A DNA stretch of 54,610 nt from Bacteroidales bacterium (lineage in GTDB: Bacteria > Bacteroidota > Bacteroidia > Bacteroidales > F082): positions 1-54,610 of the forward strand of contig JAFUAA010000057.1 in the NCBI GenBank assembly GCA_017460915.1, in the 5' to 3' direction. Shown here piece after piece: positions 10,282 through 44,511 of the stretch. The position numbers and the translations under genes were made by a program. The stretch's first letter is position 1. Every line of letters starts with the position of its first letter. The notes below the pieces were generated by a model. That model worked only from the letters and a program-made list of their open reading frames with translations. It was not told the DNA's origin and made no database searches.

Positions 10282-10347
10282 CTGTAATTTAGGACAGCAA
10301 AGAGATGGAATTTTGACGGATTTCATAAAAATCACCGCTTTTTTCTT

Positions 10348-10355
10348 TAATTTTG
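10348..10355 (+). promoter_or_regulatory. -7 box (TAATTTTG) of the amidase gene
   Basis: TAATTTTG matches TAnnTTTG and lies 28 bases before the amidase ATG, after the rng terminator. Confidence 0.55.
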
Positions 10356-10383
10356 CATTGTGAAATTATAATACCATTGTCCC

Positions 10384-12132: not shown

Positions 12133-12186
12133 AGCCCCGTTTGAACAATAATCGGAGATATGTTGCGTTTTTCTTTGGAAATTTCC

Positions 12187-12194
12187 TATTTTTG
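12187..12194 (+). promoter_or_regulatory. -7 box (TATTTTTG) of the T9SS type B gene
   Basis: TATTTTTG fits TAnnTTTG and lies 18 bases before the ATG at 12213. This position also rules out the in-frame ATG at 12054, which lies inside the amidase gene. Confidence 0.55.
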
Positions 12195-12212
12195 CAACCT
12201 ATTTCAGAAAAA

Positions 12213-13424
12213 ATGAGAAATCATACCGTCATATTCAAGGCTTTGTCGCTCATGGTGCTACTGGCCGTTTCGGTTTTTGTGCAAGCGCAAGAGCCCTGCG
12301 AAATCATATGTAGCGCGGAGATGCCCATTTGTAGTGAAACAACAGTAACGCTCAGTGTTCCAAATAATTATCTGTACACCTATTCTTGGATGCCAGGCGG
12401 GCAGACCACCAACAGCATCGTGGTGAAGCTTTATGAGACGACCACGTATAGTGTCGAGATTCGTGAGGAAGCCACGGGCAATTTGATTTGCCATCCAGAG
12501 CTCAGGGTGGAGGTGAAGCCTCGTTTTGAGGTGGATTTCCGTCAACTGAAACTCACTTGCAGCAACCGTGAGGAGGAGAATGGTCGCAATGCTCAAGTTG
12601 TTGCTTGGGTTGACTCTACGGCTGCAGTGTATGCCCCCCCGTTCACCTACCAATGGGAGCTCAGTCCGTTGCATATTGCCCCCAACGACCCCACATGGGC
12701 CATTGGTTTGGAGGCCTATAAGTACTACTACATCCGTGTGACCGACAATCGTGGCTGCACCCAATTGGATAGCGTCAAACTGAAGGCCTATCCCAATCCC
12801 GTGGTGGAGATTGCAACCAACCCAGGCGACACGGTCTACCTGCAAAACCCTCATGTAACCTATTCGTTTGAGAACAAGTCGGATGACACGCTGGATATCA
12901 GCAATTTCTATTGGATTCTGAACAGCACTTATAACATTACTTCGACTGAAAACGAACCCCGATTCACCTACGTGGAAACAGGAGATTACAGCACCGAATT
13001 GAAGATTTACAACCCGCAAGGTTGCGATACCTCTTATTATAAGACGGTCAAGGTGGAACCCGTGAAGCTGAAAATCCCGAACGTGTTTACACCCAACGGC
13101 GACGGCACCAACGACTATTTCATCATCTCCCTTGACGGCGGCAACGACTTGGGTGGCGGCACCTCGGGCAATCGTGGCGAAGGCGGCGGCAACCAGCTTG
13201 AATATGAGGGATACGAGCCTTTGAACCGTTATTACGAGGCTTCTGAACTCACCATTTTCAACCGTTGGGGACGCATCGTTTATCATTCCAAGGACTATCA
13301 AAACGATTGGGATGGCGGCGACCTTCCCGACGGCACTTATTTCTACGTACTGAAATGTCATGGCCTGAAGCAGGACGCCACCTACCAAGGCTCGGTGATG
13401 ATCATTAAAACGCAAAGACAATGA
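12213..13424 (+). CDS. Secreted protein with PKD-like region and T9SS type B C-terminal domain
   Basis: The 403-residue protein starts at 12213 with a signal peptide ending VFVQAQ. The middle holds immunoglobulin/PKD-like beta domains (YSWMPGGQTTNSI; FTYVETGDYSTELKIYN). The end is the 'gliding motility-associated C-terminal' type B sorting domain: IPNVFTPNGDGTNDYF, LTIFNRWGRIVY, WDGGDLPDGTYFYVL. Such proteins are exported by T9SS, often with a PorP/SprF partner, which is not in this window. Its stop overlaps the next start (ATGA). A Gly-rich stretch interrupts the tail near residue 310. Confidence 0.88.
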   Translation: MRNHTVIFKALSLMVLLAVSVFVQAQEPCEIICSAEMPICSETTVTLSVPNNYLYTYSWMPGGQTTNSIVVKLYETTTYSVEIREEATGNLICHPELRVEVKPRFEVDFRQLKLTCSNREEENGRNAQVVAWVDSTAAVYAPPFTYQWELSPLHIAPNDPTWAIGLEAYKYYYIRVTDNRGCTQLDSVKLKAYPNPVVEIATNPGDTVYLQNPHVTYSFENKSDDTLDISNFYWILNSTYNITSTENEPRFTYVETGDYSTELKIYNPQGCDTSYYKTVKVEPVKLKIPNVFTPNGDGTNDYFIISLDGGNDLGGGTSGNRGEGGGNQLEYEGYEPLNRYYEASELTIFNRWGRIVYHSKDYQNDWDGGDLPDGTYFYVLKCHGLKQDATYQGSVMIIKTQRQ

Positions 13425-31200: not shown

Positions 31201-32091
31201 ATGCAAAAACAAACTTGTTTTCTTTTGCTGCTGCTCGCCATTTCGCGTTTGGCGTTCTCGCAGAATCCCATCAACATTGATGAGTACAAGGTCATTGACC
31301 AAAGCCGTTTCATCATCACCTACGAAGCGATGATGACCGACGACTCGCTGAAGCCCACGGAACACAACTACGACCGCCTCGTCCTGATGGTGGGTGATTC
31401 CATTTCACGATGTTACAGCAATACTATGTACCGTTATGATTCCGCTTATACGGAATGGTGTGTACACAAAGGAAGGGATGCTTGCCAAAACATGAGCCAT
31501 TTTGTTGGGGACTCTGGCGGCGTTTGGAACCCCGATGTGTATAAGTATTTTGGCTCAAAACGGATGACGGCCATGCATCGTATGGGAGAGGCTCGGGTGC
31601 CGATTTTTCTGTATGACGAGCCTTTGGACTTGATGGACTGGAAGATGTCGTTTGGAACAAAGGAAATCCTTGGCTATCCATGCTTCAAGGCTGAATGTGA
31701 TTTTCGTGGACGGCATTGGACGGCTTGGTACACGATGCTGATTCCTGTGCAAGACGGTCCGTGGAAATTCTGCGGCTTGCCCGGACTGATCCTCGAAATG
31801 GAGGAGTCGCGAGGGCATTATGCTTTCCGCTGTATCGGTATCGAGACGCAGAAAAGGCCGATAGTTTGGTTTGATGGGCCTCGTTTTGAAGATTATCAGC
31901 GTTGCATTCGTGCCGATGTCATGAAGCAAGAGGAGGATTATCATGCGGATTGGTATGCTTACATTCGGATGGCAAATCCTGGTATCAAGTTATATGTCGC
32001 AAAAACGGACGCTTCGGGCAAACGAAGGCCGGTGGAGGCTCCTGCGGATGAAAAGAAAGTGCTGCCTTATAACCCTGTTGAGTTGGAATAA
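31201..32091 (+). CDS. GLPGLI family protein 1
   Basis: The 296-residue secreted protein has a signal peptide (MQKQTCFLLLLLAISRLAFS). The family core reads GRHWTAWYTMLIPVQDGPWK, then FCGLPGLILEMEES (about residues 190-203). The C-terminus YNPVELE is shared with the two paralogues downstream. GLPGLI proteins (TIGR01200) have no settled function; they are exported and cluster with peptide maturation genes. Unlike the other two, this copy has no visible precursor before it. Confidence 0.9.
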   Translation: MQKQTCFLLLLLAISRLAFSQNPINIDEYKVIDQSRFIITYEAMMTDDSLKPTEHNYDRLVLMVGDSISRCYSNTMYRYDSAYTEWCVHKGRDACQNMSHFVGDSGGVWNPDVYKYFGSKRMTAMHRMGEARVPIFLYDEPLDLMDWKMSFGTKEILGYPCFKAECDFRGRHWTAWYTMLIPVQDGPWKFCGLPGLILEMEESRGHYAFRCIGIETQKRPIVWFDGPRFEDYQRCIRADVMKQEEDYHADWYAYIRMANPGIKLYVAKTDASGKRRPVEAPADEKKVLPYNPVELE

Positions 32092-32170
32092 TATTGGTCA
32101 AATATTGTATAGGACTATTCTAAAATAGACCCCAAAATAAGTAAATACTAGTCTAATTACAAAAAATTTG

Positions 32171-32178
32171 TATTTTTG
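32171..32178 (+). promoter_or_regulatory. -7 box (TATTTTTG) of peptide unit 1
   Basis: TATTTTTG fits TAnnTTTG, 430 bases before the precursor 1 ATG. Confidence 0.55.
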
Positions 32179-32185
32179 TACCCGA

Positions 32186-32607
32186 AAAACAATAATGACC
32201 AATGAAACTCCTGAATGACATAATGCTCCGTTTCCTCCGAGCCGCCAGCGTGAAACCAGTGCTTGTTGCAGAGGTTTTGGCGTTTGAACCCAATAACTTG
32301 GTCAGGTGTTGGATAATCATTAGTAATTTACGGAGTGCTAACCAAAGCGGAGGATTTTTGGGCAAGACGCAAGGACAACAAGCCTGGCGGATGGCCACAG
32401 AACTCCGCAAAATGGGGAAGAACAAGTTCGTCCAAACCTTGTCCCCGCAATGGAAGCGCTTGCCGTTTGCGGGGACTTGACCGCCATAGGCGGCGGGAAT
32501 GCATGGCCAAGGCGTACCCCACCCCCGCAACGAAAGGCAAAACGGAAGCGGGGAGCGCAACAATGCCGAAAACAAACAAGACTTTTACAAACTTAAACCT
32601 TACTGAA
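32186..32607 (+). other. Long 5' leader before precursor 1
   Basis: About 420 bases lie between the promoter box and the precursor start, without a convincing gene (the 92-codon frame from 32202 has no family features). It contains several G/C-rich inverted segments, such as CCGCC-ATA-GGCGG near 32480. It shares the ordered words GTGCTTGTTG, AAGCGGA and TTTTGGGCAAGA with the leader of unit 2. A structured regulatory leader is inferred. Confidence 0.5.
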
Positions 32608-32842
32608 ATGAAAAACCTGAAACTGAACAAGCTGAACCGAATCAGCGAGGAAATGAAGAACGCTGTTAAGGGAGGCGAAGCACCCTGCTGCTCATGCCGG
32701 ATGCTGCTACGCCAATAGCGGCGGGTCGTCGGTGGCTGCAAACGGAAATGAAAACAAGAAATATGGGTGTCACTCGATTGTTGGTTCTGATTGCGACACT
32801 GCATATGAAGATATGTGGCATATTGTTTGTCCACAAGACTAA
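32608..32842 (+). pseudogene. RiPP precursor 1 (GG leader), frameshifted at the core
   Basis: From 32608 the frame reads MKNLKLNKLNRISEEMKNAV, then KGG and EAPCCSCRMLLRQ, stopping at 32718 (36 aa). In the +1 frame, from about 32681, the sequence continues HAGCCYANSGGSSVAANG and later YGCHSIVGSDCD to a stop at 32840-32842. That aligns with GCCYVNQGGSS and GCLHTKCDEY of precursor 2. One extra base (or two lost) between 32680 and 32700 explains the break. The leader is almost identical to that of precursor 2. As written, only a truncated core can be made. Confidence 0.82.
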
Positions 32843-32860
32843 TCTTAAGGTTTTACAATA

Positions 32861-32897
32861 AGAGAGTGTTGTTGAATAAAATCGCAACACTCTCTTT
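32861..32897 (+). terminator. Hairpin after precursor 1
   Basis: AGAGAGTGTTG (32861-32871) pairs perfectly with CAACACTCTCT (32885-32895), followed by TT. It stands between the precursor and the GLPGLI 2 gene and probably limits read-through. Confidence 0.75.
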
Positions 32898-32913
32898 CCC
32901 AACACATGGATAT

Positions 32914-33765
32914 ATGAATAAGAAAACAACAGTTTTAGTGCTTTTGCTTTTTCATTCGCTTTGCATTACAGCCCAAGACCGCATAGATGGGGTTTCGTTT
33001 GAAGATTATATGGTTGTTGATACCAGCCGGTTTGTCGTTGTTTATGAAATGCTTCAAACACGCGATGCCCAAAATCCATCAGAAAAGGTTTACGACTATG
33101 CCTTGCTTGAAGTGGGAAGGCAAATATCTCGCTATCATAGCAAACACCTTGTCACCTTTGATTCCATTTACACGGTAGCGTTGAGAAAAGGGAGGCAAGG
33201 CATACCTCCCGCCAATAGCAACTTGTATCCTTTTGAAATTTACAAAAACCATTCGGAAAAGAACGTGCAAGTATTCTATCGCGCACGAATGAGAGGCATA
33301 TTCAGCTATGAAGAGAAAATGGAAGAAATGAGATGGATACCAATTGGCGGAAAAGAAACCATTGCGGGCCATTCCTGCAATAAGGCAGCCTGCACATTCA
33401 GAGGACGCGAATGGACGGCATGGTACACTTCAGAGGTTCCCTGTTCTGAAGGCCCATGGAAGTTTTGCGGATTGCCAGGGTTGATTCTGAAGGTTGAAGA
33501 CGACAAAAACGAGTACACTTTTCGTTGCGTCAAAATCAATGGTGGAGGCAAGCCAATTGAGGTCATGCAAAGTTACTTTTATGAGAAAAGCACAAGAGCA
33601 GCAGTAGTTGAATTGGAGAAGAAAGCCCATAACGACTTTTACGGTTACATGACAACCTATAACGGTAAAACTCCAAATATTGTATATGACGATGGAACCA
33701 AAATGCCAGCGGAAAAGGTAAATGAGAGATTCAACAAGCCCTACAACCCCATCGAATTGGAATGA
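32914..33765 (+). CDS. GLPGLI family protein 2
   Basis: The start at 32914 gives a 283-residue protein with a signal peptide (MNKKTTVLVLLLFHSLCITAQ); the in-frame ATG at 32815 lies inside precursor 1. The core reads GREWTAWYTSEVPCSEGPWK and FCGLPGLILKVEDDKN (about residues 185-200), and the end is PYNPIELE. It is closer to GLPGLI 3 than to GLPGLI 1. It follows precursor 1 after a hairpin and is followed within 4 bases by the truncated rSAM copy. Confidence 0.9.
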   Translation: MNKKTTVLVLLLFHSLCITAQDRIDGVSFEDYMVVDTSRFVVVYEMLQTRDAQNPSEKVYDYALLEVGRQISRYHSKHLVTFDSIYTVALRKGRQGIPPANSNLYPFEIYKNHSEKNVQVFYRARMRGIFSYEEKMEEMRWIPIGGKETIAGHSCNKAACTFRGREWTAWYTSEVPCSEGPWKFCGLPGLILKVEDDKNEYTFRCVKINGGGKPIEVMQSYFYEKSTRAAVVELEKKAHNDFYGYMTTYNGKTPNIVYDDGTKMPAEKVNERFNKPYNPIELE

Positions 33766-33768
33766 ACC

Positions 33769-33948
33769 AAGAACGCTTATCTTACTGCCGAACAAATCAG
33801 GTCGGCCTTGGCCAACACGCCCCAAATCACCTTTGAGGTGACGGATGCCTGCAATTTGTGTTGCGAATACTGCGCCTACGGCAAGCTGTATGCCGGCTAT
33901 GACGTTCATGCCTACACAACTGTTTCCTTTGAAACATGCAGATTGTAA
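33769..33948 (+). pseudogene. Truncated radical-SAM maturase copy, start codon lost
   Basis: The frame reads NAYLTAEQIRSALANTPQ and then DACNLCCEYCAYGKLYAGYD, nearly the same as residues 2-45 of the intact maturase at 35584. The ATG of ACCATGAAC has become AAG (33769-33771). The CX3CX2C cysteines are kept, but the Arg between them is Cys. Homology stops near 33903 and unrelated codons run to a TAA at 33946-33948. This is the remnant of a duplicated unit. Confidence 0.88.
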
Positions 33949-33986
33949 ATAAATTGCATTTTTTTGATAAAAAAACAGCCAAAACA

Positions 33987-34017
33987 TTTGACAAATGAAA
34001 AATAATGTGTATCTTTG
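33987..34017 (+). promoter_or_regulatory. Promoter of peptide unit 2 (TTTG-N19-TATCTTTG)
   Basis: TTTG (33987-33990) and TATCTTTG (34010-34017) are separated by 19 bases, a full match to the Bacteroidetes sigma consensus. It is the strongest promoter seen in the locus, 438 bases before the precursor 2 ATG. Confidence 0.7.
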
Positions 34018-34024
34018 TACCATC

Positions 34025-34454
34025 AAACCTGTTGAAAGGATACGGTCGTGAAGCCCAATCTGTCGATAGGAAAACAGCTGACATCGCTCATAGGCAAAGC
34101 GACAGGGCGGTGCTTGTTGTTCGTTTCGTTCTCCGTCGATACATTGATTGTCAAGTGTTTACAAGCATTATCTTCTGATGAGGTTAAGACGTATGCCCTG
34201 CCTGTTGCCGTAAGCGGAAGCCGGGGTGGAAAACGGCCTTTCATCTGGGTTTTGGGCAAGAACAGGTTCATTCGAGTTGTGGTCTCCGTTGCCTGAATCT
34301 TTTCAGGCGGCGGCTCCGGCAAGGGTGGCGGTCCATCCGCCTTGAGGGAGGCCCTGGATGGGCAAGCAAACAGGAAAGCTGTTTTTGGCTGCGCCATAAA
34401 GTTGGCAATTCAAAGCCGACGGATGTTTTCAAATGAAGTACGAACCTTTAAATT
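34025..34454 (+). other. Long 5' leader before precursor 2
   Basis: About 430 bases separate the promoter from the precursor start. The 82-codon frame from 34048 has no family features. The words GTGCTTGTTG (near 34111), AAGCGGA (near 34212) and TTTTGGGCAAGA (near 34250) occur in the same order as in leader 1, and the 3' half is rich in GGCGG/CCGCC arms. A conserved RNA leader is inferred. Confidence 0.5.
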
Positions 34455-34673
34455 ATGAATGTCATGAAAGACTTGAAACTGAACAAGCTGAACCGAATCA
34501 GCGAGGAAATGAAGAATGCCGTTAAAGGCGGAGAACAGCCTCAAGAGTATTGCACTTGCGGTTGCTGTTATGTAAATCAAGGCGGATCGAGTTTCGAAGA
34601 CAATAAGATTGCCAATTTCAATGGCTGTCTGCACACGAAATGTGACGAGTATGTAGTAGTACCAGAAATGTAA
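34455..34673 (+). CDS. RiPP precursor 2, GG-Bacteroidales type, Cys-rich core
   Basis: The 72-residue peptide may start at 34455 (MNVMKDLK) or at the next ATG, 34464, which matches precursor 1. The leader NRISEEMKNAVKGG ends in the double Gly cut by C39 peptidases. The predicted 46-residue core starts EQPQEYCTCGCCYVNQGG and has six Cys (CTCGCC, GCL, KCD). It fits the 'natural product precursor, GG-Bacteroidales' family (TIGR04149, from memory). It is the only intact precursor in the window and lies just upstream of GLPGLI 3 and the maturase. Confidence 0.88.
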   Translation: MNVMKDLKLNKLNRISEEMKNAVKGGEQPQEYCTCGCCYVNQGGSSFEDNKIANFNGCLHTKCDEYVVVPEM

Positions 34674-34680
34674 ACTCATT

Positions 34681-34718
34681 GCAGGCTCCTTGTTTTGTGG
34701 AGCCTGCAACAATCTTTT
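34681..34718 (+). terminator. Hairpin after precursor 2
   Basis: GCAGGCTCC (34681-34689) pairs with GGAGCCTGC (34699-34707), followed by AACAATCTTTT. As in unit 1 it separates the precursor from the GLPGLI gene and probably lowers downstream transcription. Confidence 0.78.
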
Positions 34719-34725
34719 ATGTCGC

Positions 34726-35580
34726 ATGAAAACTAAATTTACCTTTATAATCGCACTCTTTTTCATCACAGTTTCCATGATAGCCCAAAAGCCTATATTT
34801 CTGGATGACACTGTCTTCATTGGTAAAAGTGTGTACGAAATTCATTATTCAGTCAGTGTTGTGGATGATGTTGATAATGAAGAATCAAAGGTTTCTGATT
34901 TTTTGGTGCTGGAAATAGGAGAAAACCTATCAAGATGCTATAACCAAAACTTGTTTTTGTATGATTCCAGTTTTACGGCAAGTGTGAGACAAGGGAAAAA
35001 CGCCTATCCAATTGCAAGGGGTGTCCATTTTCCTGAGGAAGTGTTGAAGTGCTTTCCAGAAGCGAAATTGATAGTTAACCATAGGATGCCCCAAAAATAC
35101 ATCTATCAATATGAAGAGGAAGTCCCAAATTGGCAATGGCAAATGTGTGACGAAACGAGAGAAATACTGGGCTATACTTGCCACAAGGCGCAGTGCTACT
35201 TTCGAGGCCGTTTGTGGACGGCATGGTACAGCGAAGAGATACCTTTGCACGATGGTCCGTGGAAGTTTTGTGGGCTGCCTGGGCTCATTCTCAAGGTGGA
35301 GGATGACAAAGCACACTATTCATTCACCTGTGAGAGTGTCCAAAAAGCCAAGGGTTCTCCGATAGTTGTCTATGACAAGTATTACTACACGCAAACAACA
35401 CGGGAACAGATGTACGAAGAACTGACCACGATTTATTCGGATTGGTATGCTTATTTGCGTTTTCTTAATGGCGGACACTTGGAAGTAGGAAAACGGGATG
35501 AAAACGGCAAAGTGACCTTTATGGAAGTACCGCTCGATGTGAAAAAAACTATACCCTACAATCCCATCGAATTGGAGTAA
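34726..35580 (+). CDS. GLPGLI family protein 3
   Basis: The 284-residue protein starts at 34726 with a signal peptide (MKTKFTFIIALFFITVSMIAQ). The core reads GRLWTAWYSEEIPLHDGPWK and FCGLPGLILKVEDDKA (about residues 182-197), ending PYNPIELE. It lies 3 bases before the intact radical-SAM gene, so the two are surely co-transcribed. Role unknown; export to the envelope together with the peptide system is inferred. Confidence 0.92.
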   Translation: MKTKFTFIIALFFITVSMIAQKPIFLDDTVFIGKSVYEIHYSVSVVDDVDNEESKVSDFLVLEIGENLSRCYNQNLFLYDSSFTASVRQGKNAYPIARGVHFPEEVLKCFPEAKLIVNHRMPQKYIYQYEEEVPNWQWQMCDETREILGYTCHKAQCYFRGRLWTAWYSEEIPLHDGPWKFCGLPGLILKVEDDKAHYSFTCESVQKAKGSPIVVYDKYYYTQTTREQMYEELTTIYSDWYAYLRFLNGGHLEVGKRDENGKVTFMEVPLDVKKTIPYNPIELE

Positions 35581-35583
35581 ACC

Positions 35584-36831
35584 ATGAACGCTTATCTTAC
35601 TGCGGGGCAAATCAAGTCGGCTTTGGCCAACACGCCACAAATCACTTTCGAAGTTACGGATGCATGCAACTTGCGTTGCGAGTATTGCGCCTATGGAAAG
35701 TTGTACTCCGACTACGACAATCGAGAAGACAGGATGCTGCCTACGGAAACCGCCAAACGATTTATCGACTACATTGGCGCCCTTTGGGCTTCGCCCGACA
35801 ACCATTCTGTGAACAACAACCTTTATGTTGGCTTCTACGGCGGTGAGCCTCTACTCAATATGCCTTTCATTAAGGAGATTGTAGGCTATTTGAAAGCGGG
35901 TGGTCATGCCAAGCGCTTCGCCTACAACATGACCACCAACGCCATGTTGCTCGACCGCCACATGGATTTCCTCGTTGAACACGACTTCAGCCTGCTCATC
36001 AGCTTGGACGGCAACGCCGAAAACGATTCATACCGCGTCAAGGCCGACGGGAAGCCGTCGTTTGAGCAAGTGGTAAAGAATGTCGATATGCTGCGCGCTG
36101 CCTATCCCGATTATTTTGCCAAGAAAGTGAATTTCAACGCCGTGCTGCACAACCGCAACTCGGTGGACAGCATACGCGGCTTCATCAAGGAACGCTATGG
36201 GAAAACGCCTCGTATCGGTGACATCAACGATTCGGCTATACGTGAGGACATGAAGGAAGAGTTCAAGCGAATGTATCGCAATTCGTATGAAAGCCTCCTA
36301 CAGAACGAGAACTACGATGAAATTGAGAAGGAAATGTTCCTTTCAAGTCCTACTTACCATTCGGCCACCATCTTTCTCATGCAGAACTCACCCTTCAAGT
36401 ATGAAAACTACAACGAGTTGTTGTTCGGGAAAAACGAGGACATAGCATTCTGTCCCACGGGCACTTGCATACCGTTTTCACGCAAGGCGTTCGTCACGGT
36501 GAACGGCAAGATTCTGCCATGCGAGAGAATTGGTCATCAGTACAGTGTCGGGCAAGTTGACTCCAAGGGCGTGATGCTCGATTTCGAGGCAATAGCCGAA
36601 AAATACAACAATTACTACTCACGGCTCGAGAAGCAATGCCGCTTGTGCAAGAACCAACGCAATTGCATCCAATGCATGTTCAACCTCGATGGACTGGAGA
36701 AAGGGAAATGCGACTGCAATGGCTTCATGGACGAGAAACAATATGAGCGATACCGCCAAACGCAACTGGCGTTTTTTGCCCGCCATCCTGAAGCCTATTC
36801 GGAAATCATGAAGAATGTCATATACAAATAG
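35584..36831 (+). CDS. Radical SAM peptide maturase, GG-Bacteroidales type
   Basis: The 415-residue enzyme has Cys28, Cys32 and Cys35 in DACNLRCEYCAYG, the CX3CX2C [4Fe-4S]/SAM site, followed by GFYGGEPLLN and the strand LLISLDGN. The C-terminal SPASM-like region has many Cys (CPTGTC, LPCERIG, CRLCKNQRNCIQCMF, KCDCNG) for auxiliary clusters. It should install a radical-based modification on the precursor core, possibly at Cys (inference). It matches TIGR04148-type maturases from memory. It follows GLPGLI 3 directly. Confidence 0.92.
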   Translation: MNAYLTAGQIKSALANTPQITFEVTDACNLRCEYCAYGKLYSDYDNREDRMLPTETAKRFIDYIGALWASPDNHSVNNNLYVGFYGGEPLLNMPFIKEIVGYLKAGGHAKRFAYNMTTNAMLLDRHMDFLVEHDFSLLISLDGNAENDSYRVKADGKPSFEQVVKNVDMLRAAYPDYFAKKVNFNAVLHNRNSVDSIRGFIKERYGKTPRIGDINDSAIREDMKEEFKRMYRNSYESLLQNENYDEIEKEMFLSSPTYHSATIFLMQNSPFKYENYNELLFGKNEDIAFCPTGTCIPFSRKAFVTVNGKILPCERIGHQYSVGQVDSKGVMLDFEAIAEKYNNYYSRLEKQCRLCKNQRNCIQCMFNLDGLEKGKCDCNGFMDEKQYERYRQTQLAFFARHPEAYSEIMKNVIYK

Positions 36832-36834
36832 ACA

Positions 36835-38067
36835 ATGGAAATGAAAGATGGTTGGTTGTCTTTACCCAAAACGGTTTATATTTCGTTTGAGGAGCCGGAT
36901 TCGGTTTTGCTTTATCATACCGAAAAAAGCTGTCATGCATACAGCCGGTTACCCAAAAACGTAAAACTTATGGAGGATGTTTACAATCCGAAGAACTTGG
37001 GCGTCGTGAACCTGAACGAATATTTGCCAGATGGTGATATTGAGGCTTTCTTGGATCGTTTACTTGAATCCGGCATGTGCAAACTAAAGGAACAAACAAA
37101 AGACGCCCCCAAACCTATCAGCTTTCTACCCATCCTGAATCTGCAGAACGACGTGGAAAGGCTGCAAGAAATCGGGGAAGACCACATGATTGGCGATAAC
37201 ATCAGTACGTACCTCACCCGCACGGTGATACACCTCAACAGCAAATGCGGCAAGCATTGCCCGCACTGCGGCCTATTTCACAAGCAGACGCTTTGCTGCA
37301 CCGCCACTGAGCCGCCACAGGTCATGCCAGTGGAGCGGCTAAAAGAGTTGGTCGGACAATTGGCCACTACCTCAGTGCAGGTAATCGACTTGGTGGGCGG
37401 CGACTTGCGTACCTATCCGCATTTGAGCCAACTCCATGCCTTGGTGGAGCAATATCCCCAATTCAGTTGGCACCTGTGGCAGCACATCATCAATGGAAAA
37501 GGCTTGTCGTTGGATCATGTTAAAACGGAGGTCATATTGACCGCTCCATTCGAAAAAACGATGTTGCCGGAGACTTTTCAACACGATTCGAATGTCTGGT
37601 TTCATCTGTTGGTTGAAAGCGAGATGCAGGTTGAGCAAGCAGAACAACTGATTGCCGGAATTGAGGCGGAGCGTTGTGAGTGGGTCCCGGTTTTCAACGG
37701 TGAGAACCTGAAGTTCTTCGAGGACAACGTCTTTCTTAATGAGGACGACATCATGTCGGGTCCGGTTAGTATGCGGGAGATTTTCTGCCACCAGAAACTG
37801 AACACGAACTATTTCGGGAAGCTGCATTTCTTCGCCGACGGGGAAGTGAAAGCCGACGTGAACAAGGAAGCCGTCGGACGCTTTCCTGAAAAGAATGTCC
37901 TTGAATTGGTTTACGAGGAACTGACTCGCAACACGGCATGGAGACGCATCAGGGAAGGGGCGCGGTGTTCGGGGTGCCGTTTCCGTTATCTGTGTCCCTC
38001 GTCGGGTAATTATGAAACCGTAATCGGCAAAGAGAGTCTTTGCCATGTACAACCTATGCGTGAATGA
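36835..38067 (+). CDS. Second rSAM/SPASM-like protein of the GG-Bacteroidales system ('pseudo-rSAM' type)
   Basis: The 410-residue protein resembles the family named pseudo-rSAM in these systems (TIGR04150, from memory). Here a CX3CX2C motif is present (Cys138, Cys142, Cys145 in NSKCGKHCPHCG), followed by another Cys pair (LCCT) and VIDLVGGDLRTYP. The C-terminus has SPASM-like cysteines (CSGCRFRYLCPSSGN...LCHVQ). The N-terminal 130 residues could be a leader-recognition domain. It may be an active second maturase or a partner. Its stop overlaps the exporter start by 4 bases. Confidence 0.82.
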   Translation: MEMKDGWLSLPKTVYISFEEPDSVLLYHTEKSCHAYSRLPKNVKLMEDVYNPKNLGVVNLNEYLPDGDIEAFLDRLLESGMCKLKEQTKDAPKPISFLPILNLQNDVERLQEIGEDHMIGDNISTYLTRTVIHLNSKCGKHCPHCGLFHKQTLCCTATEPPQVMPVERLKELVGQLATTSVQVIDLVGGDLRTYPHLSQLHALVEQYPQFSWHLWQHIINGKGLSLDHVKTEVILTAPFEKTMLPETFQHDSNVWFHLLVESEMQVEQAEQLIAGIEAERCEWVPVFNGENLKFFEDNVFLNEDDIMSGPVSMREIFCHQKLNTNYFGKLHFFADGEVKADVNKEAVGRFPEKNVLELVYEELTRNTAWRRIREGARCSGCRFRYLCPSSGNYETVIGKESLCHVQPMRE

Positions 38068-40271
38068 TGAGCAAACGTTTTCCACATATCCGTCAACATG
38101 ATGCCATGGACTGCGGACCAGCCTGCCTTTGTATGATTTCCAAATACTATGGCAAATCATATTCCTTGGAACGGCTGCGAGGCAAGAGCCATATCACTAA
38201 TCAAGGAGTTAGTTTGGCTGGCATCGCCCATGCTGCGGAGAGCATAGGTTTCGAGACGGAATCGGGCACCATTTCTTTCGCAGACCTGATGGACACGGAG
38301 AAACTGCCTTGTATAGCCCATTGGAATCAAAACCATTTTGTAGTGGTGTATGGCTTTAGTTGTGGGAAGAATGGCACGATTGTCAAGGTGGCAGATCCAG
38401 GTGTGGGATTGGTCAGTTATACAAAAGATGAGTTTTGTGCGCATTGGCTCAGTGTGTTCGATGACACTAAACCACCTCAGGGCATTGTAATGGTTTTGGA
38501 ACCCACATCAGCTTTTTTTGAACATGAAGATGGTAAAACAGCCCAACGAAAACGTTTTGCCCTCATCAGTCAGCATGTCATGCGTTATAAGGGTGCATTC
38601 TTCCAATTGGCATTTGGATTGCTTGCGGGAAGCTTGTTGCAATTGCTGTTCCCATTCCTCACCCAAGCCATTGTCGATAAGGGCATCCGTTTCAGGGACT
38701 TGAACTTGATATGGCTCATCCTCTTGGGCCAGATGATGCTGATTTTAAGCCGCACGGCCATCGACTTCGTCAGACGCAAGGTGTTGCTTCATTTGAGCAC
38801 ACGGATCAACATCTCATTGATTTCCGATTTCATCTGCAAGTTGATGAATCTTTCCATGCAGTTCTATGATTCCCGTACCACGGGTGACCTGCTGCAACGC
38901 ATCGACGACCATAGGCGCGTGGAGAGCTTTCTTACCGCACAGTCGCTAAATGTCTTGTTTTCAGTTTTTTCGATTATTGTTTTTAGTGTCGTTTTGGCGA
39001 TTTACAGCATTCCCGTTTTTCTTGTGTTTGTGACGGGTAGCGTTTTGTATGCCGTATGGGCCAGTGTTTTCCTCAAAAAGCGTCGTATCCTTGATTACAA
39101 ATTGTTTGACCGTTATGGTGTCAACCAGGATGTGATTTATCAACTGCTGACGGGGTTGCCCGAAATCAAGCTGCAAGGCTGCGAACAACGAAAACGCTGG
39201 GAGTGGGAAGATGTGCAAGCAGACCTTTTTAAGGTTAATCTGGAATCACTCAACCTGCAACAAAACCAAGAGGCGGGCAGCATCCTGATTAACGAACTGA
39301 AAAATGTATTCATTACCGTTTTGGCTGCAACCAACGTGGTAAACGGCAATTTGAGCCTTGGCATGATGCTCTCCATACAATACATCATCGGACAACTGAA
39401 CAGCCCTATCGACCAGATTGTAGGGTTCATCTACCGTTGGCAGGATGTAAGCATCAGCCTGGAACGTATCAATGAAATCCATGAGGTGGAAAACGAAAAC
39501 GCCCATCGAGATATATGCGCCATGCCACGGCAACGCGACATTGTGATTGAGCACATGTGCTTCAAGTATGACGGCAACGCGAAAAACAACACGCTCGACG
39601 ATATCATCCTGACTTTGCGCCAAGGTAAAACCACGGCCATCGTGGGGACAAGCGGGAGCGGAAAAACAACGCTGGTGAAGCTGCTCTTGGGTTATTATCC
39701 GGCCTTGTCTGGGCAAATCATGCTGGGAGACAAGGACTTGAAAAATGTCGACTTGCAATGGTGGAGGTCAAAATGTGGAGCTGTAATGCAAGACGGTTTC
39801 ATTTTTTCAGATACTATAGAGAACAACATCGCTGTTTCAAGTGATATACCGGATAAAAAGAGACTGGAATATGCCATAGAAATGGTCAACCTGAAGGATT
39901 ATATTCAATCTCTTCCAATGGGGTTGTCAACTAAAATCGGGCATAATGGACAAGGATTGAGCCAAGGTCAGAAACAGCGTGTTCTGTTGGCAAGAGTAAT
40001 CTATAAAAACCCTGATTTTGTCTTTCTTGATGAAGCCACCAATGCTTTAGATGCAGAGAACGAACGTACGATTGTAAATAATCTGCGGGAGTTCTATGGC
40101 GATAAAACCGTGGTTGTGGTGGCTCATAGGCTTAGTACAGTGCGCCACGCGGACTGTATTGTGGTGTTGCATGAAGGCAAGATCGTGGAAAGCGGCACGC
40201 ACGACGAGTTGACAGCCTTGCGGGGGCGATACTACACTTTGGTAAAAGATCAATTGGAATTAGGGAAGTAA
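38064..40271 (+). CDS. C39 peptidase-containing ABC exporter
   Basis: The 735-residue protein has three parts. The C39 peptidase has Cys17 in MDCGPACLCM, His91 in NHFVVVYG and Asp111 in VADPGVG. The membrane domain has about six helices (160-440). The ABC ATPase has Walker A GTSGSGKTT (about 528-536), signature LSQGQKQR (about 632) and Walker B FVFLDEATNALD (about 652-663). It cleaves double-Gly leaders and exports the core, fitting the KGG ends of both precursors. Its start overlaps the upstream stop. Confidence 0.95.
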   Translation: MMSKRFPHIRQHDAMDCGPACLCMISKYYGKSYSLERLRGKSHITNQGVSLAGIAHAAESIGFETESGTISFADLMDTEKLPCIAHWNQNHFVVVYGFSCGKNGTIVKVADPGVGLVSYTKDEFCAHWLSVFDDTKPPQGIVMVLEPTSAFFEHEDGKTAQRKRFALISQHVMRYKGAFFQLAFGLLAGSLLQLLFPFLTQAIVDKGIRFRDLNLIWLILLGQMMLILSRTAIDFVRRKVLLHLSTRINISLISDFICKLMNLSMQFYDSRTTGDLLQRIDDHRRVESFLTAQSLNVLFSVFSIIVFSVVLAIYSIPVFLVFVTGSVLYAVWASVFLKKRRILDYKLFDRYGVNQDVIYQLLTGLPEIKLQGCEQRKRWEWEDVQADLFKVNLESLNLQQNQEAGSILINELKNVFITVLAATNVVNGNLSLGMMLSIQYIIGQLNSPIDQIVGFIYRWQDVSISLERINEIHEVENENAHRDICAMPRQRDIVIEHMCFKYDGNAKNNTLDDIILTLRQGKTTAIVGTSGSGKTTLVKLLLGYYPALSGQIMLGDKDLKNVDLQWWRSKCGAVMQDGFIFSDTIENNIAVSSDIPDKKRLEYAIEMVNLKDYIQSLPMGLSTKIGHNGQGLSQGQKQRVLLARVIYKNPDFVFLDEATNALDAENERTIVNNLREFYGDKTVVVVAHRLSTVRHADCIVVLHEGKIVESGTHDELTALRGRYYTLVKDQLELGK

Positions 40272-40273
40272 CT

Positions 40274-40762
40274 ATGGACTGGAAAGAATCTGATATGCGG
40301 AAGAGTCCCAAAGTGAGGGAAATTGTAGGCCAAATGCCGCCTATGCTGGCTCGTTATGGCATTGCGGTAATCGTAGGAAGCCTGCTGATGACCTGCCTTG
40401 TTTTTGCTGTGATGCCCTATCGTCCCCAACTTCCCGTCGTGGCCAAACAAACACTCTGCTCCGATTCCTCGCAAGTCGTGTCTGCGGTTGTCCCAAGCGA
40501 GTTGTACAACACTTTTCCAAAGGCTTTTTCCGAGGTCGGAATCAATCGGCAAAAAGACGGGTTGCAGCTTCTTCGTGCCACGGAAATCGGGAACGATGAA
40601 GATGGTAATCCTGTCACCCTCATTGAATTGGAAGGAAAAAACAACAACCTGAACCTCGATTCAACCATCACGATCTTCCACTTGGGGAAAGTGCCACTGC
40701 TCTCGTGGATGTTGGGAAGATACTATTTTGGAGTATTTGACAAAAACCATAATAATCAATAG
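40274..40762 (+). CDS. Short HlyD-like membrane protein, possible reduced export adaptor
   Basis: The 162 residues begin like the N-terminus of Bacteroidetes HlyD adaptors (SPKVREIVGQMPPMLARYGI), with one membrane helix at about 28-48 and a periplasmic tail of about 110 residues. Normal HlyD adaptors run above 400 aa, with a coiled-coil hairpin and lipoyl halves, which are missing. It starts 2 bases after the exporter stop. It may be a reduced adaptor or an unrelated accessory protein. Confidence 0.5.
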   Translation: MDWKESDMRKSPKVREIVGQMPPMLARYGIAVIVGSLLMTCLVFAVMPYRPQLPVVAKQTLCSDSSQVVSAVVPSELYNTFPKAFSEVGINRQKDGLQLLRATEIGNDEDGNPVTLIELEGKNNNLNLDSTITIFHLGKVPLLSWMLGRYYFGVFDKNHNNQ

Positions 40763-40771
40763 CTTTGTGCC

Positions 40772-43450
40772 ATGAGAAAACCATTTGCCTTTGTTATCTT
40801 GTTTGCGCTTTTCACTTGTGAGGCGCTGTCGCAAACCATCCTTACGGGCCATGTGCTCAACGAGAAGAAAGAGCCTGTTTTCAATGCCTCGGTGGTGCTG
40901 ATGCGTGTGACCGACAGCTTGCCATTGAGCTACACTTTCACCGACGACAAGGGGCATTACAAACTCATCACTGAAAACAAAGAGGAGAAATGGCTCCTCA
41001 CTGTATATGGCTTCAACATCGGGCGGCAATCAAAAATAATCGAGAATAAATCTCAAGTCGTTGATTTTAATGTGGCTGAACAAGCAATTCAGATTCGCGA
41101 GGTGAGCGTGAAGTCCGAAAAGATTTGGGGCGGCAACGACACGGTGAACTATGTGGTGGATGCTTTCCGCGACACCACCGACATCGTCATCGCCGATGTG
41201 CTGAAGAAGATGCCTGGAATCGAGGTGAAGGACGACGGCAAAGTGGAATACAAGGGCAAGCCCATCTCGAAGTTCTACATCGAGAACATGGACATGCTGC
41301 AAGGCCGCTACAACCTCGCCACCAACAGCATCGCCGCCTCCGATGTGGCCTCGGTGCAGGTGATGGAGAACCACCAAGAGGTGAGGGCGCTGCAAAACAT
41401 CCAGTTTTCGGACAATGTGGCCCTCAACATCAAGTTGAAGGAAAACGCCAAAGGCACCTTCGCCTTGATGGCCGACCTTGGCGCGGGCTGGGCCGACAGT
41501 CTGCAATACGAAGGCGGTCTCACGGGGATGTACTTCGCGAAACGGAACCAGTTTCTCGGCACCTTGAAAGCCAACAATTCAGGCATTAACCTTGTTGACA
41601 ACGAGAATGTCACGGTCTATCCGATGGCCTCGATGGTCAAGCCGAGTGCGCCAAGCATCTCCAGTTCGCGCTATGCGCTGAACCGCTCGCAAGGCGTCAC
41701 CCTCAACAGCCTCCACAAACTGAAAAACGAGGCCGAACTGTCGTACAACCTGCTCTTTGGCGGCGACCGCAACCGCAGGTCGAGCGAGTCGCGCACGCTC
41801 TATCTCCTTCCCAACGACACGCTCAACCTCGTCGAGCGGATGCAGTCGATGGAAACAGCTAAAATGCTCGAAGGCAGCATCAATTACAACCTGAACAAGG
41901 ACTTGGACTATTTGAAAATCAGCCTCACCGCTTCGGGACACCGCAACTGGGGCGAGGGCTTGGTGGACAACGGCGAACTGATTCGTCCGGAGGAAGACTA
42001 CCCATCGCTGTGCGCCAAGGCCAATATCCACTGGATTCGCAAGAGCCGCCGCGACCCCGAAAGCGGCGTGGAAATCAATTCCACCACGAGTTACGGCACC
42101 TTGCCCTACGGCATGCAAGTCGAGCCAGGCTGTTTTCCCGAAGTCCTCAACAGTGGCGAAGATTATGCGCTGACGATGCAAAACATCGGTTTTCAATCCT
42201 TTAAGAGCGAGAATTCCCTTCGTTTCCTCACCAGCATGGTTTGGAAACGGTTGCGCATCATGCCGTATTTCAATTTCAACGTGGAAGAGCAGTCGCTTAA
42301 TTCAGACGCGCTTTGCGTCATTGCGAGCGAAGCGAAGCAATCCAGACAAGAAACTTCAAGTCTGGAATGCTTCGTCGTGTCTCCTCGCAATGACGGAAAC
42401 CTATTCAGTAATGACATCCGTTGGCACAAATACCAGCCCGCCGCAGGTGCCTGGTTCACTTACGACCGCCGTCGCGTGAGCGTAACGCTCGTTGTGCCCG
42501 TACAGTTGCGTTACCTGCAATTGGACGACCGCATCGAGACCGCTTCCGACAAGCAATTCAAGGTGTTGTCCCAGCCTTCGCTCTCGTTCCGTTATGATTT
42601 CAGCCACAAATGGAAAGTGAGCACCAAAATTGCCACCTACAACAACACCCCGAGTTTGCGAACGCTGTATTCGGGTTACATCTTACAGAATTACAGAACC
42701 TTGTCACGCTACGATTGCCCTTTGGCCGACACTTATGGGACCAACGGATCGCTGACTTTTTCGTACAAGAACGTGATGAAATATGCGTTTGGCGATTTTT
42801 CGGTGAACTACAACCGCTACCGCAACGAAGTGATGTATGCGCAAAGTTTTGAAGGCAACACCATGGTTATCAATGCCGTGGAGCAGCAGAGTTGGGGCGA
42901 TTACCTGTCCGTTTCGCTATATGCGGGTAAGGGCTTCAGTTGGAAGCGGTTGAACATCAATGCGAAATGTTCGTACGGATTGGGTCGCTCGCCACATTTG
43001 GTCCAAAACCAAGTGGCCACCTATTACAACCAAGCCTGGAACGTCAATCTGACCGCTTCTATCGCAATCACAGATTACATCTACTTCAACAATAAAGGCA
43101 GTTTTAGTCGGATGACTTCTTCTTTGGATGGTTTTAATGCCGATAGTCAGCCAATTGTGAGTATCATTGACAATGCCAATTTGAGTGTCGTGTTGCCTTT
43201 TGGTTTGTCCGTCACGCCCTCGGTGGAGTTCTATCACACCCGTTCCGAAGGTCGAACAGACAATTTTGTGCTTTTGGATTGCAGCCTCGGTTATACTTTC
43301 CGCAAGGTCAAGTTCACTTTGGATGTGAACAACATTCTTGACACAGATAGTTTTGTTTATTCCTATTATTCAGGAATTTACGGACATTATTCGGCTTATT
43401 CGATTCGGCCAAGGAGTGTGATGCTAGGGGTGCGGTTGAAGGTGATTTAA
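40772..43450 (+). CDS. Outer-membrane beta-barrel protein (TonB-receptor-like), with in-frame repeat insertion
   Basis: The 892-residue protein has a signal peptide ending CEALSQ and a carboxypeptidase-regulatory-like domain (LTGHVLNEKKEPVFNASVVL). A plug-like part follows (VADVLKKMPGIEVKDDGKVEYKG), then a long barrel ending SIRPRSVMLGVRLKVI. This is the outer-membrane beta-barrel family related to TonB-dependent receptors. It starts 9 bases after the HlyD-like gene, so it could be the outer-membrane exit or receptor for the peptide. A palindromic repeat at 42315-42395 adds about 30 foreign residues in frame. Confidence 0.88.
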   Translation: MRKPFAFVILFALFTCEALSQTILTGHVLNEKKEPVFNASVVLMRVTDSLPLSYTFTDDKGHYKLITENKEEKWLLTVYGFNIGRQSKIIENKSQVVDFNVAEQAIQIREVSVKSEKIWGGNDTVNYVVDAFRDTTDIVIADVLKKMPGIEVKDDGKVEYKGKPISKFYIENMDMLQGRYNLATNSIAASDVASVQVMENHQEVRALQNIQFSDNVALNIKLKENAKGTFALMADLGAGWADSLQYEGGLTGMYFAKRNQFLGTLKANNSGINLVDNENVTVYPMASMVKPSAPSISSSRYALNRSQGVTLNSLHKLKNEAELSYNLLFGGDRNRRSSESRTLYLLPNDTLNLVERMQSMETAKMLEGSINYNLNKDLDYLKISLTASGHRNWGEGLVDNGELIRPEEDYPSLCAKANIHWIRKSRRDPESGVEINSTTSYGTLPYGMQVEPGCFPEVLNSGEDYALTMQNIGFQSFKSENSLRFLTSMVWKRLRIMPYFNFNVEEQSLNSDALCVIASEAKQSRQETSSLECFVVSPRNDGNLFSNDIRWHKYQPAAGAWFTYDRRRVSVTLVVPVQLRYLQLDDRIETASDKQFKVLSQPSLSFRYDFSHKWKVSTKIATYNNTPSLRTLYSGYILQNYRTLSRYDCPLADTYGTNGSLTFSYKNVMKYAFGDFSVNYNRYRNEVMYAQSFEGNTMVINAVEQQSWGDYLSVSLYAGKGFSWKRLNINAKCSYGLGRSPHLVQNQVATYYNQAWNVNLTASIAITDYIYFNNKGSFSRMTSSLDGFNADSQPIVSIIDNANLSVVLPFGLSVTPSVEFYHTRSEGRTDNFVLLDCSLGYTFRKVKFTLDVNNILDTDSFVYSYYSGIYGHYSAYSIRPRSVMLGVRLKVI
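42315..42395. repeat. CGTCATTGCGAGCGAAGC palindromic repeat inside the barrel gene
   Basis: GCGTCATTGCGAG on the left pairs with CTCGCAATGACG on the right, with inner arms TCCAGACAAG and CAAGTCTGGA. In frame it encodes CVIASEAKQSRQ and ECFVVSPRNDG without a stop. The same element fills the cstA-prfB gap. Confidence 0.88.
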
Positions 43451-43514
43451 AAGAAATTCTCTATTTTATTCAAGAAAAGTAGTGTTTTTGCAGCGTTTCT
43501 TGAACAAAATCAAA

Positions 43515-44135
43515 ATGACCTATCTGCAATTTCGCGAACAATGGCATCGGGTGGGCTGCTTCAACATCTATCAAGTGAGGGCAGATTGCCCCCATTTCGA
43601 CCGTGGCAACTTCGGCCATTGGGTTAAAAAGGGCTATTTGGTGCGCTTGCTGCAGGATTGGTATGCTTTTGCCGATTTGCTGCAAGTGGCTGAGTTCTCG
43701 CGCTATATCGCACAAAGGATTTACGCCCCTTCCTATATCAGCCTGCATTCGGCTTTGGCCTATTATGGCATCATCCCCGAAGCGGTGACGAGAATCACTT
43801 GTGTAAGTACCAACAGAACTGCACATTACGAGAATGCCTTTGGCGAGTTCAGTTACCAGACCGTCAAGCCGGATTTGTTTTTCAGTTACGAGCCAAGAGC
43901 CTTGCCACAGGGCTACACCTATCATTTGGCCTTGCCCGAAAAGGCCCTGCTCGACTTGCTTTACCTTTATCCGCAATACGACACCGAAAACGAAATGCTG
44001 GAACTGCGCCTTGACGACTATTGGATGCACGAGGAACTGAATGTCAACCGATTGCGTGTTTTTTCAGAAAGGGCAAACAGCAAAGCCTTGCAGATTAGAA
44101 TCGAAATAATGCTAGAAACCTACCGCCATGATTGA
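43515..44135 (+). CDS. AbiEi-like antitoxin (type IV toxin-antitoxin)
   Basis: The 206-residue start at 43515 (MTYLQFREQW) is preferred over the ATG at 43482, which gives a tail without homology. It shows an N-terminal winged-helix part (WVKKGYLVRLLQDWYAFADLL), then APSYISLHSALAYYGIIPEAV and ALPEKALLDLLYL, typical of AbiEi transcriptional antitoxins. It overlaps the AbiEii-like gene by 8 bases. AbiEi neutralises AbiEii and represses its own operon; here the partner is broken. Confidence 0.82.
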   Translation: MTYLQFREQWHRVGCFNIYQVRADCPHFDRGNFGHWVKKGYLVRLLQDWYAFADLLQVAEFSRYIAQRIYAPSYISLHSALAYYGIIPEAVTRITCVSTNRTAHYENAFGEFSYQTVKPDLFFSYEPRALPQGYTYHLALPEKALLDLLYLYPQYDTENEMLELRLDDYWMHEELNVNRLRVFSERANSKALQIRIEIMLETYRHD

Positions 44136-44511
44136 ACTCAAAACTTTACTCGGCTTCTATCCGCCGCAAATCGCCAACAATGCTGCATTCCGCAAACACA
44201 TCCTGAAGGAATATGTCGAATTGTTGTCGCTCGAATACCTTTCTCGCTCGCCGTATGTGCCGCATTTGGCTTTCATCGGAGGCACCAACTTACGCCTCGT
44301 TTACGGCATTGACCGTTTTTCAGAAGACCTCGACTTCGATTGCAAGGATTTCAGCGAATCGCAGTTCATGGAGATGACAGACAGTCTCATCGACTATCTG
44401 AAAACAAGAAAACTGGTTTCGACAGGAAGCAGAAGAGGTTCCTCATCGCCATGTTTGTCGCTTTCTTCTGCCTTGATGTCTGGGCTTATACGATTGTGGC
44501 GTCGAAGTTGA
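44128..44511 (+). pseudogene. AbiEii-like nucleotidyltransferase toxin, truncated
   Basis: The N-terminal 90 residues match AbiEii: LEYLSRSPYVPHLAFIGGTNLRLVYGIDRFSEDLDFD, which includes the GG-T-x-LR and D-L-D-F-D polymerase-beta motifs. After about residue 92 (LKTRKLVS) the homology stops and a low-complexity Ser/Leu tail runs to a stop at 44511, giving 127 aa instead of the usual 250-300. The C-terminal part has been lost, so the toxin is probably inactive. Confidence 0.8.

Follow-up and report, generated by a model that had tools for sequence, protein, structure and literature searches.

Contig JAFUAA010000057.1 of a Bacteroidales bacterium (lineage F082; assembly GCA_017460915.1), analysed here over its full 54,610 nucleotides (the window), carries a locus for a ribosomally synthesized and post-translationally modified peptide (RiPP) in which a cysteine-rich precursor precedes a gene of the GLPGLI family. 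As read from sequence, an intact peptide-GLPGLI unit (34455-35580) and a decayed copy of it, with their own predicted enzymes and exporter, lie between a GLPGLI gene and an outer-membrane barrel-type gene that are neighbours of each other elsewhere. The slot beside the barrel holds other predicted peptide-GLPGLI units at other loci, some of them plain Sec-exported pairs with no modifying enzyme, or it holds none. We tentatively read the pairs as cassettes in a GLPGLI-barrel operon, in which the peptide would be bacteriocin-like and GLPGLI its periplasmic partner.

The initial annotation of the window had named three GLPGLI genes, and all three encode full-length proteins on the forward strand that score well above the TIGR01200 cut-off of 50 bits: GLPGLI 1 (31201-32091; 166.6 bits), which has a signal peptide, GLPGLI 2 (32914-33765; 168.2 bits), and GLPGLI 3 (34726-35580; 173.8 bits). 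The open reading frame (ORF) list opens the latter two earlier, at 32815 and 34690. Unit 2 is complete and lies on the same strand. It runs from a precursor with a double-glycine (GG) leader and cysteine-rich core (34455-34673; TIGR04149 23.9 bits, E 2.9e-5, cut-off 25) through a hairpin and GLPGLI 3 to a radical S-adenosylmethionine (rSAM) peptide maturase (35584-36831; TIGR04148 527.4 bits, cut-off 300), a pseudo-rSAM protein (36835-38067; TIGR04150 302.7 bits, cut-off 250), a C39 peptidase ABC exporter (38064-40271; PF03412 109.6 bits), a short HlyD-like protein of 162 residues (40274-40762), and the barrel-type protein with a CarboxypepD_reg-like N-terminus (40772-43450; PF13715 25.2 bits, under the cut-off of 32.2). 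The maturase, exporter, and barrel are present as first described.

The order leader, precursor, hairpin, GLPGLI, maturase had been seen twice. It is intact in unit 2, and an inverted repeat, read directly in the sequence, separates precursor from GLPGLI in both units, but the precursor and maturase of unit 1 are broken. Precursor 1 (32608-32718, forward strand; TIGR04149 14.3 bits, cut-off 25) keeps its leader but goes out of frame soon after the core begins; residues resembling a core continue in another frame to about 32839, and each of the two pieces matches the precursor profile on its own. The rSAM remnant (33775-34014, forward strand) aligns with only profile positions 2-82 of 411 and contains two stops, and its open 46-residue stretch, at 50 bits, falls short of the cut-off of 300. 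Judged by these reading frames, unit 1 is decayed and holds no working copy; two working copies were rejected on the broken precursor frame and the fragmentary maturase. The two precursor leaders are nearly identical, as had been noted. The cores do not differ freely as had been supposed: the alignment gives a pattern, C-x-C-x-C-C-Y..GGSS...N..AN, common to both window cores and to other TIGR04149-type precursors.

A second locus of the same genome, contig C15 (locus L017), carries three tandem units, each composed of a repeated upstream region, a small cysteine peptide, and a GLPGLI gene. The Sec signal of these peptides is nearly constant while the mature, cysteine-containing part varies, and tandem units elsewhere likewise have a constant signal or leader and a variable mature part. 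Five Sec peptides were scanned, and none matches an NCBIfam family above its cut-off. After the three units come a fulvocin C-related bacteriocin protein (NF033852 69.5 bits, cut-off 35), then a membrane protein that is thioredoxin-like, and finally a relative of the window barrel. The fulvocin C-related protein has the same upstream leader motif as the peptides and a similar start. It has a signal-type start and a cysteine-rich end, and it precedes the thioredoxin-like membrane protein rather than a GLPGLI gene. No rSAM gene of the TIGR04148 family occurs on contig C15; because these units lack the rSAM gene and are Sec-exported, the pairing appears independent of both modification and export route. 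The fulvocin C-related and thioredoxin-like genes occupy L017:13052-15007, in a run with the three units, and a similar lipoprotein-type gene was seen by eye near position 245962 of contig C22 in the same genome.

The barrel is the steadier neighbour. Among 102 fetched Bacteroidales loci, a barrel homologous to that of the window lies within 6 kb of 100 of 114 GLPGLI genes, gene fragments included, which agrees with the earlier view of the barrel as part of the set; these neighbour counts exclude the GLPGLI places in genomes G058, G072, and G253 and on contig C47, a duplicate of part of the window. The four of 20 fetched rSAM loci that contain GLPGLI are exactly the four that contain the barrel. 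GLPGLI 1, previously taken for a lone gene, is present, but its orthologue in loci L232 and L234 (84-85% identity, 85% at the DNA level) opens a GLPGLI-GLPGLI-barrel run with no RiPP block; the barrel orthologues there are about 83% identical (82-84% across L232 and L235). The window has an 8.7-kb RiPP block between GLPGLI 1 and the barrel, and L235 has the same block ahead of an 84% identical barrel, on a contig that starts inside the leader. Locus L302, which occupies the chromosomal site corresponding to that of C15 (flanks 77-88% identical), contains one GLPGLI gene and a barrel, and the stretch before them holds no candidate peptide by the rule given below. Comparison of L232 and L234 with the window, and of L302 with C15, indicates that the GLPGLI-barrel pair is the shared part and that peptide-GLPGLI units come and go. 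The ancestral GLPGLI-barrel operon may have been either with or without units.

To score the pairing, we called peptides by a rule of our own (40-130 residues, an ATG start, a GG at leader position or a hydrophobic start with K/R, and at least two Cys afterwards) within 300 bp upstream of a gene; the Fisher counts use the raw output of the rule. Where at least 200 bp are free, a peptide lies upstream of 47 of 103 GLPGLI genes, 23 of 431 other genes, and 1 of 31 barrels (Fisher p = 8e-22, GLPGLI versus other genes). The counts without this filter are 47/251 for GLPGLI, 24/905 for other long ORFs, and 1/146 for barrels (p = 7e-17, GLPGLI versus other ORFs). Searched against 295 genomes of the order, a Sec-peptide profile made from seven seeds has four further matches that cover 50 or more of its 65 positions (E 2e-15 to 0.003). 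Each of these stands directly 5′ of a GLPGLI gene, and the many weaker matches span the signal region only.

Units also occur in named genomes, drawn from the best 80 of at least 592 loci when ranked by similarity to GLPGLI 3: a Dysgonamonadaceae locus with three units (L264), a Bacteroidales metagenome-assembled genome with three Sec units among six GLPGLI genes (L277), Porphyromonas levii (L266), Flavobacterium (L254), and Sinomicrobium (L287). Peptide and GLPGLI copy numbers had been expected to match. Counting distinct GLPGLI proteins of at least 200 residues, they do so in L017 and L264 (3:3, the latter with a further copy cut off at the contig end), in L097 and L107 (2:2), and in single-unit loci, but they are often unequal (the window, L100, L101, L102, L103, L106, L276, L277, L280, L298, and L307).

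Across the 295 genomes, TIGR04148 occurs in 20 and GLPGLI in 65; 20 of the loci taken from this survey were chosen for GLPGLI richness. A tie between GLPGLI and rSAM chemistry was rejected, GLPGLI being present in 4 of the 20 rSAM loci that were fetched (5 of 21 once the window is counted) and in 65 genomes against 20 for the maturase. Genome G048 encodes a TIGR04149-type peptide, two GLPGLI proteins, and a barrel and, at 97% completeness, gives no TIGR04148 match at 1e-8, so peptide and maturase are separable. Three other genomes of the same genus in the sample have neither TIGR04148 nor GLPGLI at the limits used, and the window locus therefore looks accessory.

Thirteen peptide calls were removed by eye for the tree analyses. 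When the 47 GLPGLI proteins that have a peptide are placed with GLPGLI 1 on a maximum-likelihood tree, peptide type (18 GG, 29 Sec) changes three times, compared with a mean of 14.6 for shuffled labels, and none of 500 shuffles is as low; the GLPGLI proteins of the window and C15, although from one genome, fall in separate clades of this tree. A larger quick tree of 261 GLPGLI proteins requires four changes, against a minimum of 10 in 300 shuffles. Presence or absence of a peptide on the 261-protein tree changes 32 times (shuffle mean 43.7, minimum 40), the weak clustering expected if units come and go. Mantel tests used the 42 of 46 pairs with a barrel in the locus and excluded precursor 1. 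Distances correlate most strongly between GLPGLI and barrel (r = 0.79), followed by peptide and barrel (0.68) and peptide and GLPGLI (0.67); given the barrel, the partial peptide-GLPGLI correlation is 0.30 overall (p = 0.0005) and 0.57 in the Sec set. Relatedness inflates both the tree and the Mantel results. Peptide, GLPGLI, and barrel are inherited together, with a tighter peptide-GLPGLI link in the Sec set only, and this covariation is compatible with coevolution and shared descent alike. The covariation proposed at the outset is thus present, but the barrel link is the stronger one.

How might such a cassette work? The peptide would reach the periplasm by Sec or through the C39 exporter, whose adaptor here appears trimmed to its membrane anchor; GLPGLI, with signal peptides read from the sequence, is expected in the same compartment, and one barrel would serve several peptide-GLPGLI pairs. 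The peptides are most likely bacteriocin-like, the pair moving as a toxin-plus-partner cassette in which the role of the partner may be one in immunity, folding, or display. A bacteriocin with a cognate periplasmic partner is favoured because the pair is the unit of gain, because a constant leader is joined to a variable mature part, and because a bacteriocin-related protein is a neighbour. That each peptide binds its own GLPGLI, is toxic, and is transported in the direction proposed here is inferred. Still more guardedly, we propose a Bacteroidota-wide class of exchangeable cassettes in which a Sec- or GG/C39-exported cysteine peptide would travel with its own bowl-domain protein, the GLPGLI-barrel pair would be the common outer-membrane gate, and modification would be optional.

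Several observations weigh against the bacteriocin cassette. The partial peptide-GLPGLI correlation given the barrel is not significant in the GG set (r = 0.16, p = 0.095, n = 16). Following the by-eye removals, no peptide is recognised upstream of 214 of the 261 distinct GLPGLI genes, and some long GLPGLI arrays have few or no peptides (L290, L282, and L092). In Weeksellaceae, which we take to be the family of a Chryseobacterium genome, GLPGLI occurs in 13 of 16 genomes searched, with up to 28 copies in one. Short flanks of 36 copies yielded one doubtful, unconvincing peptide and a barrel near three, and 24 copies in 20 wider stretches yielded no peptides and no barrels. Several Weeksellaceae copies lie beside iron, copper, or Fe-S genes, neighbours that toxin immunity does not explain. 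A kinase/response-regulator-type cluster flanks the GLPGLI-barrel pair in 40 Bacteroidales loci, among which L097 alone has a listed peptide. GLPGLI genes without precursors, which, if as frequent as those with them, the initial annotation had named as counting against a dedicated partner, thus outnumber those with them, and since so many lack a recognised peptide, GLPGLI as a general dedicated partner fails. The part of that proposal that stands is narrower: within a subset of loci the two genes are paired far above chance, and the export type of the peptide tracks the GLPGLI tree.

Uptake of a self-made carrier is instead favoured by the iron and copper genes near GLPGLI in Weeksellaceae and by the regulator contexts; we hold this account to be unlikely on the whole but the best of the others. 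GLPGLI and the barrel would then form a TonB-dependent uptake module, and the cysteine-containing peptide, exported and loaded (with a metal, for instance), would be retaken through it. Hemophores and methanobactin are analogous carriers. Neighbours in the 20 wider Weeksellaceae stretches include FeoB-like proteins (4), TonB receptors with an HMA-like part (3), Fe-S assembly-like proteins (5), and BlaR1/BlaI-like proteins (3); the labels FeoB, BlaR1/BlaI, and two-component were backed by Pfam or NCBIfam in a few cases and otherwise reflect similarity. Pfam, applied to one of each kind, identified FeoA in L363, a TonB barrel in L357 with HMA below the cut-off, and Fe-S_biosyn in L353. M56-type proteins flank the GLPGLI-barrel pair in 8 loci and BlaI-type repressors in 6, and the M56 protein tested, from L100, has three TonB C-terminal matches. 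Among the Bacteroidales and named loci, the same FeoB query has no hit, and the query with the HMA receptor finds only L228 and L244. The Weeksellaceae loci may represent only two or three conserved neighbourhoods, and tandem pairs sharing one barrel, with a bacteriocin-related protein in the operon, suit toxins better than carriers.

An exporter formed by barrel and GLPGLI is rather improbable. By analogy with Oar, GLPGLI would be a periplasmic chaperone that hands the peptide to an Oar-like barrel; Sec peptides on their own get only as far as the periplasm, and the adaptor-like protein is short in the window and in L079. Oar is required for PopC secretion, and an Oar-like domain architecture is described as dominant in Bacteroidetes (PMC6434023, in excerpt). 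The window barrel shares with Oar-type transporters a carboxypeptidase-like N-terminal domain, and Oar offers a precedent for export (same excerpt), but neither the plug model of Pfam (PF07715) nor its barrel model (PF00593) recognises the window protein, whose only matches are CarboxypepD_reg-like and below cut-off; a Flammeovirga record annotates a distant relative as a TonB-dependent receptor. An exporter would also have no cargo in arrays of up to 12 GLPGLI copies without recognised peptides or in peptide-free GLPGLI-barrel runs such as L232 and L302.

Regulator-type genes adjoin many GLPGLI-barrel loci, so the peptide could be a secreted signal that is sensed via barrel and GLPGLI and to which nearby regulators of two-component or BlaR type respond. 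Kinase-sized and regulator-sized genes are adjacent in 30 of the 40 regulator loci, and Pfam confirmed four kinases and one OmpR-type regulator. We give this account little credence: just one of the 40 is peptide-listed, and the window and C15 lie outside them. Equally improbable is the absence of any functional link, with GLPGLI-barrel operons merely gathering small secreted genes, which would fit the many GLPGLI genes without a peptide, the scattered presence of peptides on the tree, and covariation by shared descent, but not the placement of peptides before GLPGLI and almost never directly before the barrel, nor the way the two peptide types follow the GLPGLI tree.

GLPGLI proteins are widespread in Bacteroidota, and in the literature searched their role is not settled. 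Should the pairing prove functional, the family would gain testable partners in the peptide and the barrel, and the pairing would expose small Sec-exported peptides that searches based on RiPP enzymes would overlook; if the metal reading is true, it would add a peptide-based carrier system instead. A peptide-GLPGLI-barrel module was not found in the literature searched, a scope short of supplements, preprints, and most subscription papers.

All three window proteins belong to the GLPGLI family (TIGR01200; PF09697). The AlphaFold2 model of GLPGLI 3 is beta-rich and confident (mean predicted local distance difference test score 93.8, predicted template modelling score 0.86). GLPGLI 3 exceeds the PF22252 cut-off of 27.6 bits (35.1), and GLPGLI 1 (26.7) and GLPGLI 2 (17.9) fall under it. 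Compared by sequence, a GLPGLI profile resembles the N-terminal bowl-like domain of PNGase F-II (4R4X, 7ZGN), matching PNGF-II with E 1e-4 and 7ZGN with only E 0.56; unlike that enzyme, GLPGLI is free-standing and lacks the catalytic domain. The function of the bowl-like domain is stated to be unknown (PMC9522356, in excerpt). GLPGLI genes are among the direct PhoP targets of Riemerella anatipestifer (PMC9603813) and, in Porphyromonas gingivalis, among those that change with the regulator PG0720 (PMC8757827); the excerpts of these two papers, unlike the present loci, contain no link to peptides or a partner barrel. The common PYNPIELE tail of GLPGLI 2 and 3, once taken as a sign of pairing, is not one, as N-P-I-E-type ends are found family-wide, including 24 of 33 Weeksellaceae copies, where a barrel is seldom near.

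The RiPP part of the window is the already known TIGR04148/TIGR04149/TIGR04150 system, presumably the one called GG-Bacteroidales, a name for which our literature search found no paper. The window has its maturase, pseudo-rSAM protein, precursor with the family leader, and C39 exporter; it differs in that GLPGLI lies between precursor and maturase (GLPGLI occurring in only 5 of the 21 such loci examined, window included), a barrel ends the run, and the adaptor-like protein is cut to 162 residues. No family matched the latter in profile scans. It aligns with the N-terminus of 427-443-residue proteins from sister loci, which we take to be HlyD-type adaptors, the likeness being confined to the membrane-anchor region, and shortened forms recur in L235 (162 residues) and L079 (165 residues). 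A five-gene cluster of Bacteroides uniformis comprises TIGR04149, TIGR04148, TIGR04150, an exporter, and a hemolysin-secretion-type protein (PMC4573289, in excerpt).

Upstream of each precursor, pattern and six-frame searches located a leader motif on the forward strand, coding GKNKFV at 32413-32431 within an upstream ORF (32202-32480) and GKNRFI at 34253-34271 within another (34048-34296). The motif GKN[KR]F[IV] lies within an ORF upstream of both precursors, the three Sec peptides, the gene for the fulvocin-related protein, and three genes of lipoprotein type; its places in this genome beyond the window are C15 (four), C2:41079, C22:245962, and C22:307898. A search of the genome gives 9 non-redundant hits to the pattern and 1 to a reversed control, and in 2.5 Mb of loci 8 of 9 hits of the residue motif lie just 5′ of such genes, L189 and L276 included. 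As the copies differ mainly at third codon positions, judged by eye, a regulatory upstream peptide is possible. The window stretch searched for a known RNA family in the leaders gave no Rfam match, one hit being far under its cut-off.

Contig C47 of the same assembly repeats window positions 17215-44012 at 99.995-100% identity and represents either assembly redundancy or a very recent duplication. It was rejected as a second locus and, being so nearly identical, is not independent evidence. Two overlapping genes 3′ of the window barrel (43482-44511) resemble what we take to be an AbiE-type toxin-antitoxin pair. Among Weeksellaceae, GLPGLI adjoins a FeoB-like gene or an HMA-like TonB receptor in L355, L363, L370, L371, L357, L360, and L367. 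The M56 protein of L100, of BlaR1 type, is encoded at 10346-12397 beside a GLPGLI-barrel pair, and similar loci exist. On the minus strand of L092 (12183-13163), a GG-leader cysteine peptide continues in frame, with no stop, into the signal peptide of the next GLPGLI protein.

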